Positions 8,540 through 37,528 of a DNA stretch of 64,000 nt are shown here, piece by piece. Made by a program: the position numbers and the translations under genes. Under the pieces are notes generated by a model. The model made no database searches. It saw only the letters and a list, made by a program, of their open reading frames with translations, and was not told the origin of the DNA. Within the stretch, counting starts at the first letter, position 1; each line of letters begins with the position of its first letter. Source of the DNA: Burkholderia ubonensis (GTDB taxonomy: Bacteria; Pseudomonadota; Gammaproteobacteria; Burkholderiales; Burkholderiaceae); the NCBI RefSeq assembly GCF_902833085.1, contig NZ_CADFEB010000007.1, positions 62,001-126,000 on the forward strand, in the 5' to 3' direction.

Positions 8540-9463
8540 ATGCCTGATGTGACCCCCGATCTGCGCCAATGGCGCTATTTCGTGACCGTAGCCGAGGAAC
8601 GCCATTTCGGCCGCGCGGCGGCGCGCCTGTCGATGACGCAGCCGCCGCTGTCGCAGGCGATCCGCGCGCTCGAGGACCTGCTCGGCGTCGCGCTGTTCGT
8701 GCGCACCAAGCGCTCGGTCGCGCTGACCGCGGTCGGCGCGGCGCTGCTGCCGGACGTGCGCAAGCTGCTGGCGGCGGCCGACGCGCTGCCGCCGCGCGCG
8801 CAGAGCCTCGCGCGCGGCGAGACCGGTTCGCTCGCGCTCGCGTTCGTGTCGACCGCCGACTACGGGCTCTTGCCGTCGCTGCTGCGCGCGTTCGGCGCGC
8901 GCTATCCGCAGGTGCGGCTGCAGCTCGAGGAGGCGACCAGCGACGTGCAGATCGAGGAGCTTGCCGCCGGCCGGATCGACGCCGGGCTGATCATTCCGCC
9001 GGTGCCGCCGCGTCATGCGGCCGAGCTGTCGTACCTGCCGGTCGTGCGCGAGCCGCTCGTGCTGGCGATGCCGGCCGCCGCAGCGCCGGCCGACGCATCC
9101 GAGAATGCGCCGGTGCGGCTCGCCGACGTCGCCGCGCTGCCGCTCGTGATCTTTCCGCGCCGTTTGGCGCCCGGCTTTTATGACATCATTACGGGCTGCT
9201 ACGGCGCGGCGGGGGCGACCCCGCGCATCGGCCAGGAAGCGATCCAGATGCAGACGATCGTGAGCCTCGTGTCGGCCGGCATGGGCGTCGCACTGGTGCC
9301 GCAATCGCTGCGTAACCTGCGGCGCACCGGCGTGGTCTACCGGCCGCTCGCGGACGGCGCGCCCGTCGTCGAGACGGGCCTCGTGTGGCGCACCGGCGAC
9401 GTCAGCCCCGTGCTCGCCGGCTTCATCGACATCGTGCGCGCGCAGGCGTTCGTGCGCGCATGA
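8540..9463 (+). CDS. LysR-type transcriptional regulator
   Basis: A 307-residue LysR-family regulator. The N-terminal winged helix-turn-helix (about 8-66) contains the signature AAARLSMTQPPLSQAIRALEDLLGV in which ARLSMTQPPLSQ is the recognition helix region. Residues from about 95 form the periplasmic-binding-like effector domain (SLALAFVSTADYGLLPSLL...). The domain resembles the CatM/BenM branch in general shape, but the effector cannot be inferred. It is transcribed divergently from ilvD, the usual arrangement for a LysR regulator and its target, so control of ilvD and of itself is a reasonable inference. The ATG at 8540 has no strong ribosome binding site (ATGACTGACCG precedes it). Confidence 0.9.
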   Translation: MPDVTPDLRQWRYFVTVAEERHFGRAAARLSMTQPPLSQAIRALEDLLGVALFVRTKRSVALTAVGAALLPDVRKLLAAADALPPRAQSLARGETGSLALAFVSTADYGLLPSLLRAFGARYPQVRLQLEEATSDVQIEELAAGRIDAGLIIPPVPPRHAAELSYLPVVREPLVLAMPAAAAPADASENAPVRLADVAALPLVIFPRRLAPGFYDIITGCYGAAGATPRIGQEAIQMQTIVSLVSAGMGVALVPQSLRNLRRTGVVYRPLADGAPVVETGLVWRTGDVSPVLAGFIDIVRAQAFVRA

Positions 9464-9552: not shown

Positions 9553-10443
9553 ATGATCATTCACCCGAATTTCGACCCCGTTGCGATCCATCTCGGGCCG
9601 CTGGCCGTGCGCTGGTACGGGCTCATGTATCTCGTCGCGTTCATCGCGGCGATCGTCGTCGGCCGGCTGCGCCTGAAGCTGCCGCATGTGGCCGCGCAGG
9701 GCTGGACCGTGAAGGACATCGACGACATGATGTTCTACGGCGTGCTCGGCACGGTGCTCGGCGGCCGGCTCGGCTACGTGCTGTTCTACAAGGCGGGCTA
9801 CTACCTCGCACATCCGCTCGACGTCTTCAAGGTATGGGAAGGCGGGATGTCGTTTCACGGCGGCTTTCTCGGCGTGACGCTCGCGATGATGCTGTTCGCA
9901 TGGCAGCGCAAGCGCCACTGGCTGCAGGTCACCGACTTCGTCGCGCCGATGGTGCCGACGGGGCTGGCGGCGGGCCGGCTCGGCAACTTCATCAACGGCG
10001 AGCTGTGGGGCCGCGTGACCGATCCGAATTCGCCGTGGGCGATGCTGTTCCCGGGCGCGATGCGCGACGATGCGGCCTGGCTGCCCGCGCATCCGGAGCT
10101 CGTCGCGAAGTGGCATCTGGCCGACGTGTTCATGCAGTACCAGATGCTGCCGCGCCATCCTTCGCAGCTCTATGAAATCGCGCTCGAAGGCGTCGTGCTG
10201 TTCTTTGCGCTGTTCTTGTTCTCGCGCAAGCCGCGGCCGATGGGCGCGATATCCGCGCTGTTCCTGATCGGCTACGGTCTCGCACGCTTCACGGTCGAGT
10301 TCGCGCGCGAACCGGACGACTTCCTCGGGCTGCTTGCGCTCGGCCTGTCGATGGGGCAGTGGCTGTCGCTGCCGATGATCCTCGCGGGCGTCGCGCTGAT
10401 GGTCTGGGCATACCGCCGCCGTGCGGCGGCCTCGGCTGCATGA
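9553..10443 (+). CDS. lgt: Prolipoprotein diacylglyceryl transferase
   Basis: Lgt adds diacylglycerol from phosphatidylglycerol to the lipobox cysteine of prelipoproteins, the first step of lipoprotein maturation at the inner membrane. The product has 296 residues with about seven membrane spans. The signature [14 protein letters not shown] begins at residue 141, and MSFHGGFLG and the C-terminal [11 protein letters not shown] are also family hallmarks. Several lipoproteins in this window (the OmpA-like protein at 40.1 kb and the SodC-like protein at 42.3 kb) would be its substrates. It stands in a monocistronic position, 89 bases after the LysR gene, and is closed by a clear terminator. Confidence 0.96.
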
Positions 10444-10471
10444 TGCGATCGCGCAACTGACGCACCAACGA

Positions 10472-10499
10472 AAAACGCCGGCCCAGTGGCCGGCGTTTT
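10472..10499. terminator. Bidirectional terminator between lgt and the SIMPL gene
   Basis: A perfect inverted repeat with arms AAAACGCCGGCC and GGCCGGCGTTTT around a CAGT loop. The A-run on one side and T-run on the other suit both convergent genes. Confidence 0.88.
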
Positions 10500-10527
10500 C
10501 GCATCTGACGTACTCGAGCGTCGTGCG

Positions 10528-11268
10528 TTACTTCATCTGCACCGAGCCGTTGACCGTGACGGACACGGTCGCCTTGCCGCCTTCGACCGCGATCGGCGCG
10601 CTCATCTTCGCGTTGTCCATCGGTGCTGCGGCCATCGCCATCATGCGCGGATACGGCTGTACGTTGCGGCCGCTGCCGACGTTCACGTCGCGAATCGAAT
10701 AGTTGTTGTAGCCGAACGCCTTCGCGGCTTCGTCCGCACGCACGCGGAACGACTTGATCGCTTCGGTCGTGAGCTTCTGCTCGGCCGTGCGCTGCGCTTC
10801 CGGCGACAGCGAGAACTCGACGTTCGCGACCTGCATCAGGTTCGACAACTGGCCCGCGAGCTTCGACGCCGCGGCGAAATCGCGCGATTCGAGCACGACC
10901 TCGGTGCGGCCGCGCCATGCGGAGATCCGGCCGTCGCGGTCGGTGCTCGGATAGACGGAGAACGCGCCCGTGTGCGCAGTGACGCCCGACACGGCCTTGG
11001 CCTGCGCGAGCGCGGCGTCGGCGCGCTGGTTCAGCGCGGACGTCAGGCTGCCCGGGTCCTTCGCCTGCTGCTCGTAGAACAGCGTGATGTGGATGATGTC
11101 CTGCGGCACTTCGGCGCTGGCCTGCGACGACAGCGACAGCACGCCCGACGGCTCCGGAAAGTGCGGGTTGACGGCCTGCGCGCGCGCCGCGGGCGACGCG
11201 AGCGTCACCGCGACGGGAACGGCGGCGGCGAGCGCGAGCGACAGCGCGAGTGCGGATTTCTTGGTCAT
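10528..11268 (-). CDS. SIMPL domain-containing periplasmic protein (DUF541)
   Basis: A 246-residue exported protein of the SIMPL/DUF541 family, with a signal peptide (MTKKSALALSLALAAAVPV..., cleavage near AARA-QA at about residue 31). The mature part has the family pattern GVLSLSSQASAEVPQDIIHITLFYEQQAK followed by a conserved C-terminal segment ending in TVSVTVNGSVQMK. E. coli homologue YggE is an oligomeric periplasmic protein linked to oxidative stress; the biochemical role of the family is not settled. The ATG at 11268 has GGAG (AAGGAGTCC) in the ideal place upstream. It is a single gene between two terminators. Confidence 0.88.
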   Translation of the reverse strand: MTKKSALALSLALAAAVPVAVTLASPAARAQAVNPHFPEPSGVLSLSSQASAEVPQDIIHITLFYEQQAKDPGSLTSALNQRADAALAQAKAVSGVTAHTGAFSVYPSTDRDGRISAWRGRTEVVLESRDFAAASKLAGQLSNLMQVANVEFSLSPEAQRTAEQKLTTEAIKSFRVRADEAAKAFGYNNYSIRDVNVGSGRNVQPYPRMMAMAAAPMDNAKMSAPIAVEGGKATVSVTVNGSVQMK

Positions 11269-34967: not shown

Positions 34968-36104
34968 TCAGCGGTCGTTCGCGCCTGCCGCCGCGCACGC
35001 GGCGTATCCTTCCCGCGTGTCGGCGACCGTGACGTCGACCTGCAACAGCCGGCCGTGCGCATCGACCCGCCGCGCGCGGAAGTAGTGGCGGTAGCGCAGC
35101 GCGGCGGCCGCGACTGGCGGCGTGATCCGTGCATTCCACGATTCCAGCGCAAAGCCGTCGGCTTCCAGCCATTGCAGCAGCCGCGATACGCCCGCGTCGT
35201 CGGGCGGCACCACGAGGTCGACGTCGTTCAGCGGCGCATCGGCGTCGTCATCGCCATGGCCCGCTTCGGCCGCGAGCCGGCGCGCGAAGCCGCCGATCAC
35301 GGCGAACGCGAAGCCGTCGCGCGTCAGCGCGGCGACGAGCGCACGGGCGGCGTCGGCGTCGCTCGCAAGCGGCGCCTTGCGGCACACGAGCGCGTACTCG
35401 TGCGTGCGATCGGTCGCGCCGTCGCCGTGCGGCGCGGGGCCGCCCGCGCGTTCGTAGATCAGCACGCGCTCCTCGTGCAGCTCGAAGCGTTCGCCGAGCA
35501 GCCGCGCGACATCCCACGCGAGCGGCACGAACCGGCCGCCGAGGCGCAGGTTCTGCGCCATCGCGATGCACCAGCCGCCCGGTTCGAGCAGCGCGTGCAC
35601 GCCCGCGAATACGTTGCGCATCCGTTCCAGATACGGCGCGTAGTGCGCGACACCGTACAGCTGCCCGTCGGACGCCTTGCCGGGCAGCTCGTCGCAGCCG
35701 AAGTACGGCACGCTCGTCAGGCACAGCGTGAACGGGCCGCCGGCGCTGCGCGCGGAGGCTTGCGTCGCGATGGTCGACAAATCGCCCGCGAGCACCGGAT
35801 GGCGGCCGGCCGCGGCGCCCGCCCGCGCGAGCCGTTCGCGCGCGAACGCCGCGCGCTCCGGATCGACCTCGACGCCGAGCGCCGGCGCACCGCATTGCGC
35901 AGCGGCCACGAGCGTCGTGCCGAAGCCGCAGAATGGATCGACGATCCAGCCGCCCGGCGTCGCGTGGCTGCCGATGAACGGCACCATCTGCTCGACCCAG
36001 CCGCAATCGCGCGCGGCGAATGAATCCCGCGCGCGCAGGTCGGCGGGCAGGGTGGTGTCGGCGGCCTCTTCGGTCAGGCGCAGCCAGCTAGTCACGGTGG
36101 TCAT
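34968..36104 (-). CDS. Methyltransferase-nucleotidyltransferase fusion protein
   Basis: A 378-residue cytosolic protein of two domains. Residues about 30-245 form a Rossmann methyltransferase related to the DNA N4-cytosine/N6-adenine or TRM11 type: SAM motif DPFCGFGTT (56-64), the acidic VEVDPE (79-83) and a motif IV TSVPYFG (130-136), where most relatives have (T/N)-(S/P)-P-P-Y. Residues about 250-378 look like a minimal nucleotidyltransferase, with GGF (271-273), DVDL (Asp294 and Asp296) and a third acidic residue Asp357 in LQVDVT. No target-recognition domain is evident. It overlaps the upstream radical SAM gene by 17 bases, so the two are one unit. The substrate is unknown. Confidence 0.75.
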   Translation of the reverse strand: MTTVTSWLRLTEEAADTTLPADLRARDSFAARDCGWVEQMVPFIGSHATPGGWIVDPFCGFGTTLVAAAQCGAPALGVEVDPERAAFARERLARAGAAAGRHPVLAGDLSTIATQASARSAGGPFTLCLTSVPYFGCDELPGKASDGQLYGVAHYAPYLERMRNVFAGVHALLEPGGWCIAMAQNLRLGGRFVPLAWDVARLLGERFELHEERVLIYERAGGPAPHGDGATDRTHEYALVCRKAPLASDADAARALVAALTRDGFAFAVIGGFARRLAAEAGHGDDDADAPLNDVDLVVPPDDAGVSRLLQWLEADGFALESWNARITPPVAAAALRYRHYFRARRVDAHGRLLQVDVTVADTREGYAACAAAGANDR

Positions 36105-37242
36105 CGTCGCTCCACAGGATGTCGCGCGTCGGTTGCCAGCCCGCGCACAGGTTGCCGTTCGGATGAAATACGAGCTTGTACACGGCGTCGCGCAGTTCAT
36201 GCTCGCGCATCGCGCCGTAGTCGGACGCCTCGAACACGACCTCGAACCCGTCGCGGTGCGCCCAGCGCGCGTTCCAGAAGTAGTAGCCGCCCGTCAGCGC
36301 GATCGGCTCGCACCGGGAGGCGAACGCGGGGTCGGCGACGCACGCGAGCAGCAGCGCGTCGATCGCGATCCGCGCGTGGTCGACGTAGCGCCGCGTCGCG
36401 TTGTGCCGGTACGTGTCGGGCAGCGCGGAGAACTCGCGGAAGATCACGGCGCTCGCGCCGAGCACGCGTGCGCGGTCCAGGTAACGGAGCACGTCGGCCG
36501 GCGTCTCGACGCCGCCGCGCTGCACGATGCAGACGAGCTTGACCGGGAAGCGCTCGCGCGCGGCGGCGAACGCCGTCTCGAACGCGGCGTCGCGCATCAC
36601 GGGCTGGCCGGGGCGAAAGCGCATGATCGACTGATTCACGTCGTCGCGATCGTGATGCCGCGACCATTCGAGCCACGACAGCCCGAAGCTCGCGAGCGCG
36701 GGCAGCAGCGCGCCGCCGTGCTCGACGAGGCCCGCGCCGTTCGTATACAGCACGCTGCCGCCGACGTCGGGGCCGTCGTCGCCGGCCGCGCCGAGGGTCG
36801 CGACGAGCGACAGCAGCCAGCCCGGATCGTCGGTGTTCTCGAGCCCGGACAGCGAATACGACAGCGGCACGCCGCGCAGCGCCCGCAGCGCGCGGCCGAG
36901 CGTGTCGAAGTAGCTCGCGCCCGGGCGCAGGCTCGCGGCCATCGGGCCGGACGCGGTCTCGTCGACGAGCGTTTCCGAGCAGAACCGGCAGCGCGCGGAG
37001 CAGGGCTGCGCGGCGGCGTAGGGCGTGAACGTCAGCGGCTGCGCGAAGCGGATCGCGCGTTTGCCGAGCCTGTGCGCGTGCCAGCGGGCATTGTCGTCGG
37101 CGGGCGGCTCGCGCAGCGCGAGCCACGCGAAGCGTTCGGCGAGCGCGTCGAACGCGCGGCTGCGCGCGACGAGCGGCGCGACGCCGTTCGCGTCGGCGAC
37201 CGGCACGAGCGGGATCGTCATCGGGGAACGGGCGCGGCTCAT
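36088..37242 (-). CDS. Radical SAM protein of unknown function
   Basis: A 384-residue radical SAM enzyme. The [4Fe-4S] ligands are Cys81, Cys85 and Cys88 in CSARCRFC (C-x3-C-x2-C). Family-like blocks follow: YSLSGLENTDDP, SVLYTNGAGL and a long strand-helix barrel, then a C-terminal FHPNGNLCAGWQPTRDILW that recalls the tail of SPASM-type proteins but holds a single Cys. The start is uncertain: ATG at 37242 or at 37221 are both plausible and neither has a good ribosome binding site. It overlaps the methyltransferase-nucleotidyltransferase gene by 17 bases. No precursor peptide gene is visible. Reaction and substrate are unknown; joint action with the partner gene is inferred from the overlap. 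Confidence 0.78.
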   Translation of the reverse strand: MSRARSPMTIPLVPVADANGVAPLVARSRAFDALAERFAWLALREPPADDNARWHAHRLGKRAIRFAQPLTFTPYAAAQPCSARCRFCSETLVDETASGPMAASLRPGASYFDTLGRALRALRGVPLSYSLSGLENTDDPGWLLSLVATLGAAGDDGPDVGGSVLYTNGAGLVEHGGALLPALASFGLSWLEWSRHHDRDDVNQSIMRFRPGQPVMRDAAFETAFAAARERFPVKLVCIVQRGGVETPADVLRYLDRARVLGASAVIFREFSALPDTYRHNATRRYVDHARIAIDALLLACVADPAFASRCEPIALTGGYYFWNARWAHRDGFEVVFEASDYGAMREHELRDAVYKLVFHPNGNLCAGWQPTRDILWSDDDHRD

Positions 37243-37473: not shown

Positions 37474-37500
37474 AAAAAACCCCGCACGCATCGTGCGGGG
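37474..37500 (-). terminator. Rho-independent terminator after metG
   Basis: CCCCGCACGCATCGTGCGGGG (stem 9 bp, 37480-37500) is followed on the minus strand by TTTTTTT. It lies 29 bases past the metG stop and isolates metG from the radical SAM gene. Confidence 0.92.
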
Positions 37501-37528
37501 CTGTCGCGCAAGCGGCGGCGCGTGCGGC

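Follow-up and report, generated by a model that had tools for sequence, protein, structure and literature searches.

A radical SAM gene overlapping a methyltransferase-nucleotidyltransferase fusion gene: a unit that lies beside NAD-salvage genes in several bacterial lineages

The NAD salvage operons controlled by NrtR contain NadM-NadV or PncA-PncB-NadE; NadV converts nicotinamide to nicotinamide mononucleotide (NMN), and NadM converts NMN to NAD. Here, we describe a gene pair on the minus strand of a 64,000-nucleotide stretch from Burkholderia ubonensis (contig NZ_CADFEB010000007.1, positions 62,001 to 126,000; hereafter, the window), which encodes a radical S-adenosylmethionine (SAM) protein (rSAM) and a methyltransferase-nucleotidyltransferase fusion (the fusion). 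In other genomes, the pair was found in the same clusters as these salvage operons and with the same divergent regulator, and loci in several genera had an upstream site in common with them. A functional link of the pair to NAD metabolism is well supported by the comparisons below. Our best explanation, to which we give about an even chance, is that the pair is an accessory NAD+ salvage module, most likely one making a modified nucleotide. The features of the pair are listed here.

36088-37242, minus strand: radical SAM protein (rSAM, P0001), 384 aa
36979-37002, minus strand: CxxxCxxC cluster site, CSARCRFC, Cys 81/85/88 of the rSAM, in 80/80 loci
36088-36104, minus strand: overlap of the two reading frames, 17 nt
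34968-36104, minus strand: methyltransferase-nucleotidyltransferase fusion (P0002), 378 aa
35370-36104, minus strand: methyltransferase domain of the fusion, residues 1-245 (end approximate), closest structures Trm11/TrmN/Trm14
35697-35717, minus strand: motif IV TSVPYFG, residues 130-136 of the fusion
34968-35360, minus strand: nucleotidyltransferase domain of the fusion, residues 249-378, with homologues encoded elsewhere by stand-alone genes next to that of the rSAM
35217-35225, minus strand: D-x-D, residues 294-296 of the fusion, expected metal ligands
35034-35036, minus strand: third acid, D357, of the fusion nucleotidyltransferase

The openly licensed papers listed by the searches contained no description of a radical SAM member of the NrtR regulon or of NAD salvage, nor of the combination of the rSAM, the fusion and NAD salvage, of which an earlier mention elsewhere is possible. 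As far as the available excerpts of the following sources go, the main text of a paper on viral NAD systems does not use the term radical SAM, and its account of NAD synthesis in phages is limited to NadV, NadM and NadR (PMC9503650); a paper on Xanthomonas NadV mentions neither a radical SAM protein nor an operon (PMC10907753); and radical SAM is not mentioned in a paper on regulons (PMC5343134). A vibriophage QueE radical SAM gene is reported in an excerpt that mentions the NAD salvage of KVP40 separately (PMC3468402), and a plasmid radical SAM protein of 68 residues is, from the excerpt, apparently unrelated (PMC3130047). The excerpt on altemicidin gives a precedent for NAD feeding a tailoring pathway (PMC11610977). 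SbzP is a pyridoxal phosphate (PLP) enzyme, and the pair has no PLP enzyme.

Relatives of the pair were collected by scanning genome contigs with the rSAM alignment, which yielded 95 relatives, and the best 80 were retained as loci. The fusion lay directly downstream of the rSAM gene at 72 of the 80, and 68 of the 71 measured junctions (start codons chosen by a script rule) overlapped, the other three being gapped by 4 to 12 nt. In the window's family, a full-length rSAM was present in 3 of 249 genomes and the fusion in the identical three; in the Lysobacter maris family, both were present in the identical 17 of 149 genomes. In a class-wide scan of 274 genomes, each gene was found once, in the genome of the window, and in the family of a Nocardia genome only the starting genome itself was positive (1/121). 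The rSAM family extends to Bacteroidota and Actinomycetota, as judged from the best 120 of 635 matches. One further genome of the window's family held an rSAM remnant (residues 27-73), and three genomes of another genus matched the rSAM partly; the two of these that were inspected contained a different radical SAM protein. The distances of the two proteins correlated at 0.97 (73 loci), a value expected from shared descent and not strong evidence. The 17-base overlap reported in the initial annotation was exact, as were the coordinates and strand of the two genes, and its proposal that the two genes are one system held, as they stay together outside Burkholderia and in varying neighbourhoods. 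Genes that usually stand apart, the observation it had named for refutation, were not what we found.

Several loci weigh against a perfect pairing. In Burkholderia sp. Ac-20379 (L006), the rSAM gene lay at the edge of a contig and had no fusion beside it; in two Myxococcota and Nannocystis (L073, L078 and L079), it had neither partner domain, and the nucleotidyltransferase was the sole partner at L075, L076, L080 and L081. The fusion gene was split over two frames at L011 and L043, which suggests a frameshift or sequencing error, and truncated by the contig end at L012; 3 of the 17 fusion matches in the Lysobacter maris family ran across a stop codon. On balance, comparison of the loci indicates that the rSAM and the fusion form one unit with a patchy distribution.

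A stand-alone nucleotidyltransferase of approximately 150-190 residues followed the rSAM in two Nocardia species, Hyalangium, a planctomycete and a Hymenobacter plasmid, the last being the best match of the plasmid search. These proteins are homologues of the C-terminal fusion domain and share with it the conserved residues G, D-x-D, W, Y-x-R-A and D, and the methyltransferase was missing at all five of these non-proteobacterial loci. On the basis of these five cases, the core of the system appears to be the rSAM plus the nucleotidyltransferase, with the methyltransferase a putative N-terminal addition, here in Proteobacteria only.

The neighbours of the pair were surveyed by an all-against-all comparison that was blind to NAD genes and covered 23 lineages, one locus per genus or lineage, which we picked from the 80 with short contigs (e.g. 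L066 and L075) omitted. Families confined to three close lineages were set aside, as were frames that we judged to lie antisense to the pair, NadM or NadV. Besides the pair, the families found in at least five lineages were NadM (9), NadV (8), NrtR (8) and a DraG-type hydrolase (5); their union covered 12 of the 23 lineages in several gene orders, and the single remaining four-lineage family was a frame antisense to NadM/NadV. Per locus, within the available stretch and with those shortened by contig ends scored negative, NadM was found at 43 of the 80, NadV at 39, NrtR at 13, the DraG-type hydrolase at 7, PncB at 5, PncA at 5 and any of them at 46. NadM and NrtR cross-match through their Nudix domain, and the counts were assigned accordingly (L005 and L017 to NadM, L074 to NrtR). 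In example domain searches, NadM and NadV exceeded their curated cut-offs, whereas NrtR and the DraG-type hydrolase were best matches below theirs. The initial annotation had concluded that the pair fits no nameable pathway; this part of its interpretation was not supported, as salvage genes or their regulator stand beside the pair in these 12 lineages and Burkholderia is an exception.

Upon comparison of the individual loci, we found distinct arrangements. In Xanthomonas, Lysobacter and Paraburkholderia, NadM and NadV immediately precede the pair, and in Xanthomonas the pair stood behind NadM-NadV at all 22 loci examined. In Alcanivorax and Microbulbifer, NadM precedes the pair, NadV follows it, and NrtR and the DraG-type hydrolase are divergent. 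Herbaspirillum has the order PncA-PncB-NadE-NadM-pair with NrtR divergent; here, the assignment of PncB and NadE draws on the similarity of the L036 proteins to viral ones named by Pfam, NadE in L036 and L057 was identified by eye from the translations, and the first gene of the row is one that we take to be PncA. At the genome level, NadV was found in 17/17 genomes with the pair and in 20/132 others of the Lysobacter-containing family (Fisher p = 1.7e-12, kinship ignored), and in 16 of the 17 the NadV match lay at most 1.1 kb from the rSAM match, the seventeenth being on another contig. For the 41 loci without a nearby NadV, 30 genomes were searched and NadV was present elsewhere in 18.

A different radical SAM gene stands right after NadM-NadV in two further cassettes (L088 4608-7721 and L089 2710-5901), with genes for a PLP aminotransferase-like protein and a methyltransferase behind it. 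This arrangement suggests that radical SAM chemistry has been joined to NAD salvage on more than one occasion.

In Massilia (L024) and Pseudoduganella (L040), no salvage enzymes were found in the available stretch, yet the gene for the regulator NrtR diverges from that for the rSAM. The intergenic region of both contains the site TTAGTT-N7-TA-N3-TAA-N5-CTA-N-A-N-TG, which was also found before pncA at four Herbaspirillum loci and in one Burkholderiales genome. Two of the seven loci that have the site beside NrtR carry it as a candidate directly before the rSAM gene. The 34-nt pattern was derived from the same seven loci, and its value lies in its absence elsewhere, with no further match in 140 loci, and in the shared position. 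The site upstream of the rSAM resembles the one before an NAD-salvage operon and is a candidate NrtR site.

Viral relatives were also found. Alignment A1 gave none in viral contigs, and broader alignments identified 14 viral contigs with a distant rSAM relative; no nucleotidyltransferase or methyltransferase relative was found beside the first 14 viral relatives. One of the viral contigs (L124/L128) carries, on one strand, pncB, a radical SAM gene, a radical SAM gene of this family, a third radical SAM gene, nadE, pncA, nadD and nrtR.

L124 5926-14188 = L128 8067-16335: viral cassette of NAD-salvage genes with three consecutive radical SAM genes

Pfam names pncB, nadE, NrtR and a cytidylyltransferase-like protein, which was read as nadD, whereas the pncA assignment rests on 28% identity to a Herbaspirillum protein; the third radical SAM protein belongs to a PHROG with no assigned function. 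At L135 and L136, NadV lies approximately 5 kb from the viral relative. The other eleven viral contigs showed no NAD-salvage genes in the available stretches, several of which were short. Among named phages, P0001 matched Dulem virus 40 only (27% identity). In 8 of the 14 contigs, a short second radical SAM gene precedes the viral relative, directly in L114, L128, L129 and L136 and approximately 1 kb away in L134, L137, L138 and L139. Separately, Dickeya phage vB_DsoM_AD1 (L140) has a radical SAM gene two genes after one named 'putative RNA NAD 2' (8675-9208 and 9680-11167).

The rSAM of the window has the features of the radical SAM superfamily, a CxxxCxxC site and a radical SAM barrel fold. 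The cluster site had been described as intact, which was confirmed: its three cysteines were retained in 80/80 loci, far beyond chance, as were Cys 238 and Cys 366. In alignment A1, Cys 238 and 366 were invariant and Cys 301 almost so, whereas in the broader alignment A3 only Cys 238 reached at least 90%. The AlphaFold model (pLDDT 90.9) placed the rSAM in the fold group of GDGT-MAS, MoaA and viperin, with maturases of ribosomally synthesized and post-translationally modified peptides (RiPPs) also among the fold matches. P0001 matched zero families in the Pfam scan; its relatives scored 17.6 (Nocardia, below) and 34.6 (viral, above) against the PF04055 cut-off of 29.5, which is a detection threshold, not a chemical feature. 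Searched against solved structures, the sequence alone gave no useful match and the profile gave weak matches to anSME and PqqE (E 0.004). The sole match listed in the NCBIfam search was MoaE, by chance; the viperin model NF038283 was not matched. MoaA (GTP 3',8-cyclase) shares the fold group with the rSAM at 16% identity. MoaA holds an additional Fe-S cluster near its C-terminus, bound by a three-Cys motif, and ends in Gly-Gly; the rSAM has no conserved CxxC pair after its cluster and ends otherwise.

In the fusion, the structural match list was taken up by the methyltransferase half (residues 10-246), which has the same methyltransferase fold as the tRNA methyltransferases Trm11, TrmN and Trm14. 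In contrast to these, it is joined to a nucleotidyltransferase and its motif IV, like that of its relatives, has the form (N/S)(V/I)PYF, most relatives having N(V/I)PYF; besides TSVPYFG, this part carries DPFCGFGTT. The methyltransferase fold and the nucleotidyltransferase with three acids noted at the outset were both recovered, D294, D296 and D357 being present in 70/70 alignment rows with a letter there (3 more rows were gapped), which likewise exceeds chance by far. Family matches of the nucleotidyltransferase were weak (NTP_transf_5 in 4/8 members, best E 6e-4; DUF2204 in 3/8), P0002 alone scored 12.3 bits against a cut-off of 31.2, and the profile found no relative among solved structures.

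Close relatives of the two window proteins are found in Burkholderia ubonensis clusters (95 and 98% identity), and the window genome is an assembly of 7.77 Mb in 42 contigs. From their translations, the genes flanking the pair presumably encode TamA/TamB and, at the opposite end, MetG; the window shows no NAD genes because the Burkholderia locus sits between metG and tamB. The window has no NrtR-associated upstream site of the kind found at other loci and the Pfam winged-helix model detected no NrtR in its genome; therefore, control differs in this genome. A terminator scan gave 3 terminator-like sites against 1.4 expected in shuffles.

37478-37502, minus strand: terminator-like hairpin in the interval that separates metG from the rSAM gene

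The same scan gave no consensus promoter, and the hairpin suggests that the pair may have its own transcript. In G336, of the same genus, the metG-tamB interval holds only an rSAM fragment (residues 27-73; L090 4126-4439), with no fusion found, and this remnant is a loss of the pair. In G478, the 3' end of metG is present as a direct repeat of 300 nt, 98% identical, on either side of the pair (L091 5226-5525 and 8554-8853), as if the pair had integrated at metG; this repeat is not present in the window. After the pair, G478 also carries what we take to be an Hcp-like gene (L091 9361-9840).

Among the closest rSAM folds are two that use nucleoside triphosphates as substrates, and relatives of the methyltransferase act on nucleobase nitrogens. 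Because of these functions and of neighbours that make NMN and NAD, a nucleotide is the most economical substrate; among nucleic acid, nucleotide and small molecule we favour the nucleotide as the target, and the reaction of the pair is probably on it. The product would be a modified nucleotide made from, or alongside, the pyridine nucleotides supplied by NadV and NadM. The rSAM, with its MoaA/viperin-like fold, would make a radical change on the nucleotide substrate, the nucleotidyltransferase would add a nucleotidyl group to the rSAM product or a partner, and the Trm11-like methyltransferase, in the proteobacterial version only, would methylate the product, perhaps at an exocyclic nitrogen. 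We put forward this particular chemistry tentatively. More doubtful still is an undescribed branch of NAD metabolism common to bacteria and viruses: the rSAM, joined in bacteria by the nucleotidyltransferase, would convert a pyridine nucleotide from salvage to a new cofactor or signal, and Proteobacteria would add a methylation. NAD salvage itself is textbook knowledge. If the link is functional, it would show that NAD or its precursors have a new fate, would give an orphan radical SAM family, missed by Pfam in the window protein, a class of substrates that can be tested, and may explain the viral relative inside an NAD cassette; NAD supply is described as a phage-host battleground in the excerpt available (PMC9503650).

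The pair could instead modify RNA, probably tRNA, with NAD genes nearby since the same process uses or releases NAD or ADP-ribose; we consider this unlikely, but less so than the other alternatives. The fusion has only 55 residues before motif I, which leaves no space for a THUMP domain, the N-terminal tRNA-binding domain of Trm11, TrmN and Trm14, and none was among its 7 Pfam matches at E up to 1. The absence of the methyltransferase from the five non-proteobacterial loci with a partner indicates that it is not core, no tRNA-modification gene occurred in at least four lineages of the survey, and a gene that we take to be PcnB-like recurred in three close Comamonadaceae only. The patchy spread (3/249 and 17/149 genomes) is also unlike that of classical tRNA modification.

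Further down in probability is a role in stress, defence or counter-defence based on NAD: under depletion by NADases, the module would rebuild or disguise NAD+ by way of an NAD variant that escapes their cleavage. This is consistent with the patchy distribution, the remnant in G336, the metG-end repeat in G478, the viral relatives beside NAD salvage genes and the DraG-type hydrolases at 7 of 80 loci. However, the PADLOC matches of the fusion were to methyltransferase models only (best 25 of 39, including mad2 and PglX), the rSAM had none, and no system was called. Moreover, no defence gene was found in at least four lineages of the survey, and the constant position of the pair behind NadM-NadV in Xanthomonas is more housekeeping-like.

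It is quite improbable that the association with NAD genes is hitch-hiking, that is, a chance ancestral position beside NadM-NadV kept by descent. In its favour, about half of the lineages have no NAD-gene neighbours, many positive loci are from Xanthomonas and Lysobacter, and the association figures are counts around the pair only. The at least three gene orders are hard to derive from a single ancestral position, and the NAD genes themselves differ (NadV, or PncA-PncB-NadE), with NrtR alone in two genera and a cassette on a viral contig.

PF01555 (N6/N4 DNA methyltransferase; 47.8 against a cut-off of 26.7 bits, in two stretches, the best at residues 41-87) would favour a reading of the fusion as an orphan DNA methyltransferase, or as what is left of a restriction-modification system, that merely has a radical SAM gene next to it. 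This reading is largely refuted by the co-occurrence of both genes in identical genomes in two surveys. The initial annotation noted no restriction enzyme, no nuclease recurs near the pair in at least four lineages, and motif IV departs from the (D/N/S)PP(Y/F/W) of DNA amino-methyltransferases. Restriction-modification was dropped on account of the motif and the co-occurrence. RiPP maturation was also rejected, as no neighbour family beyond the NAD ones occurred in four lineages; frames below 80 residues were not compared, and a short precursor could escape. Finally, in two Lysobacter-type genomes the pair is followed by a large protein, presumably DUF4132-like (L008 10202-13927 and L014 5733-9557).
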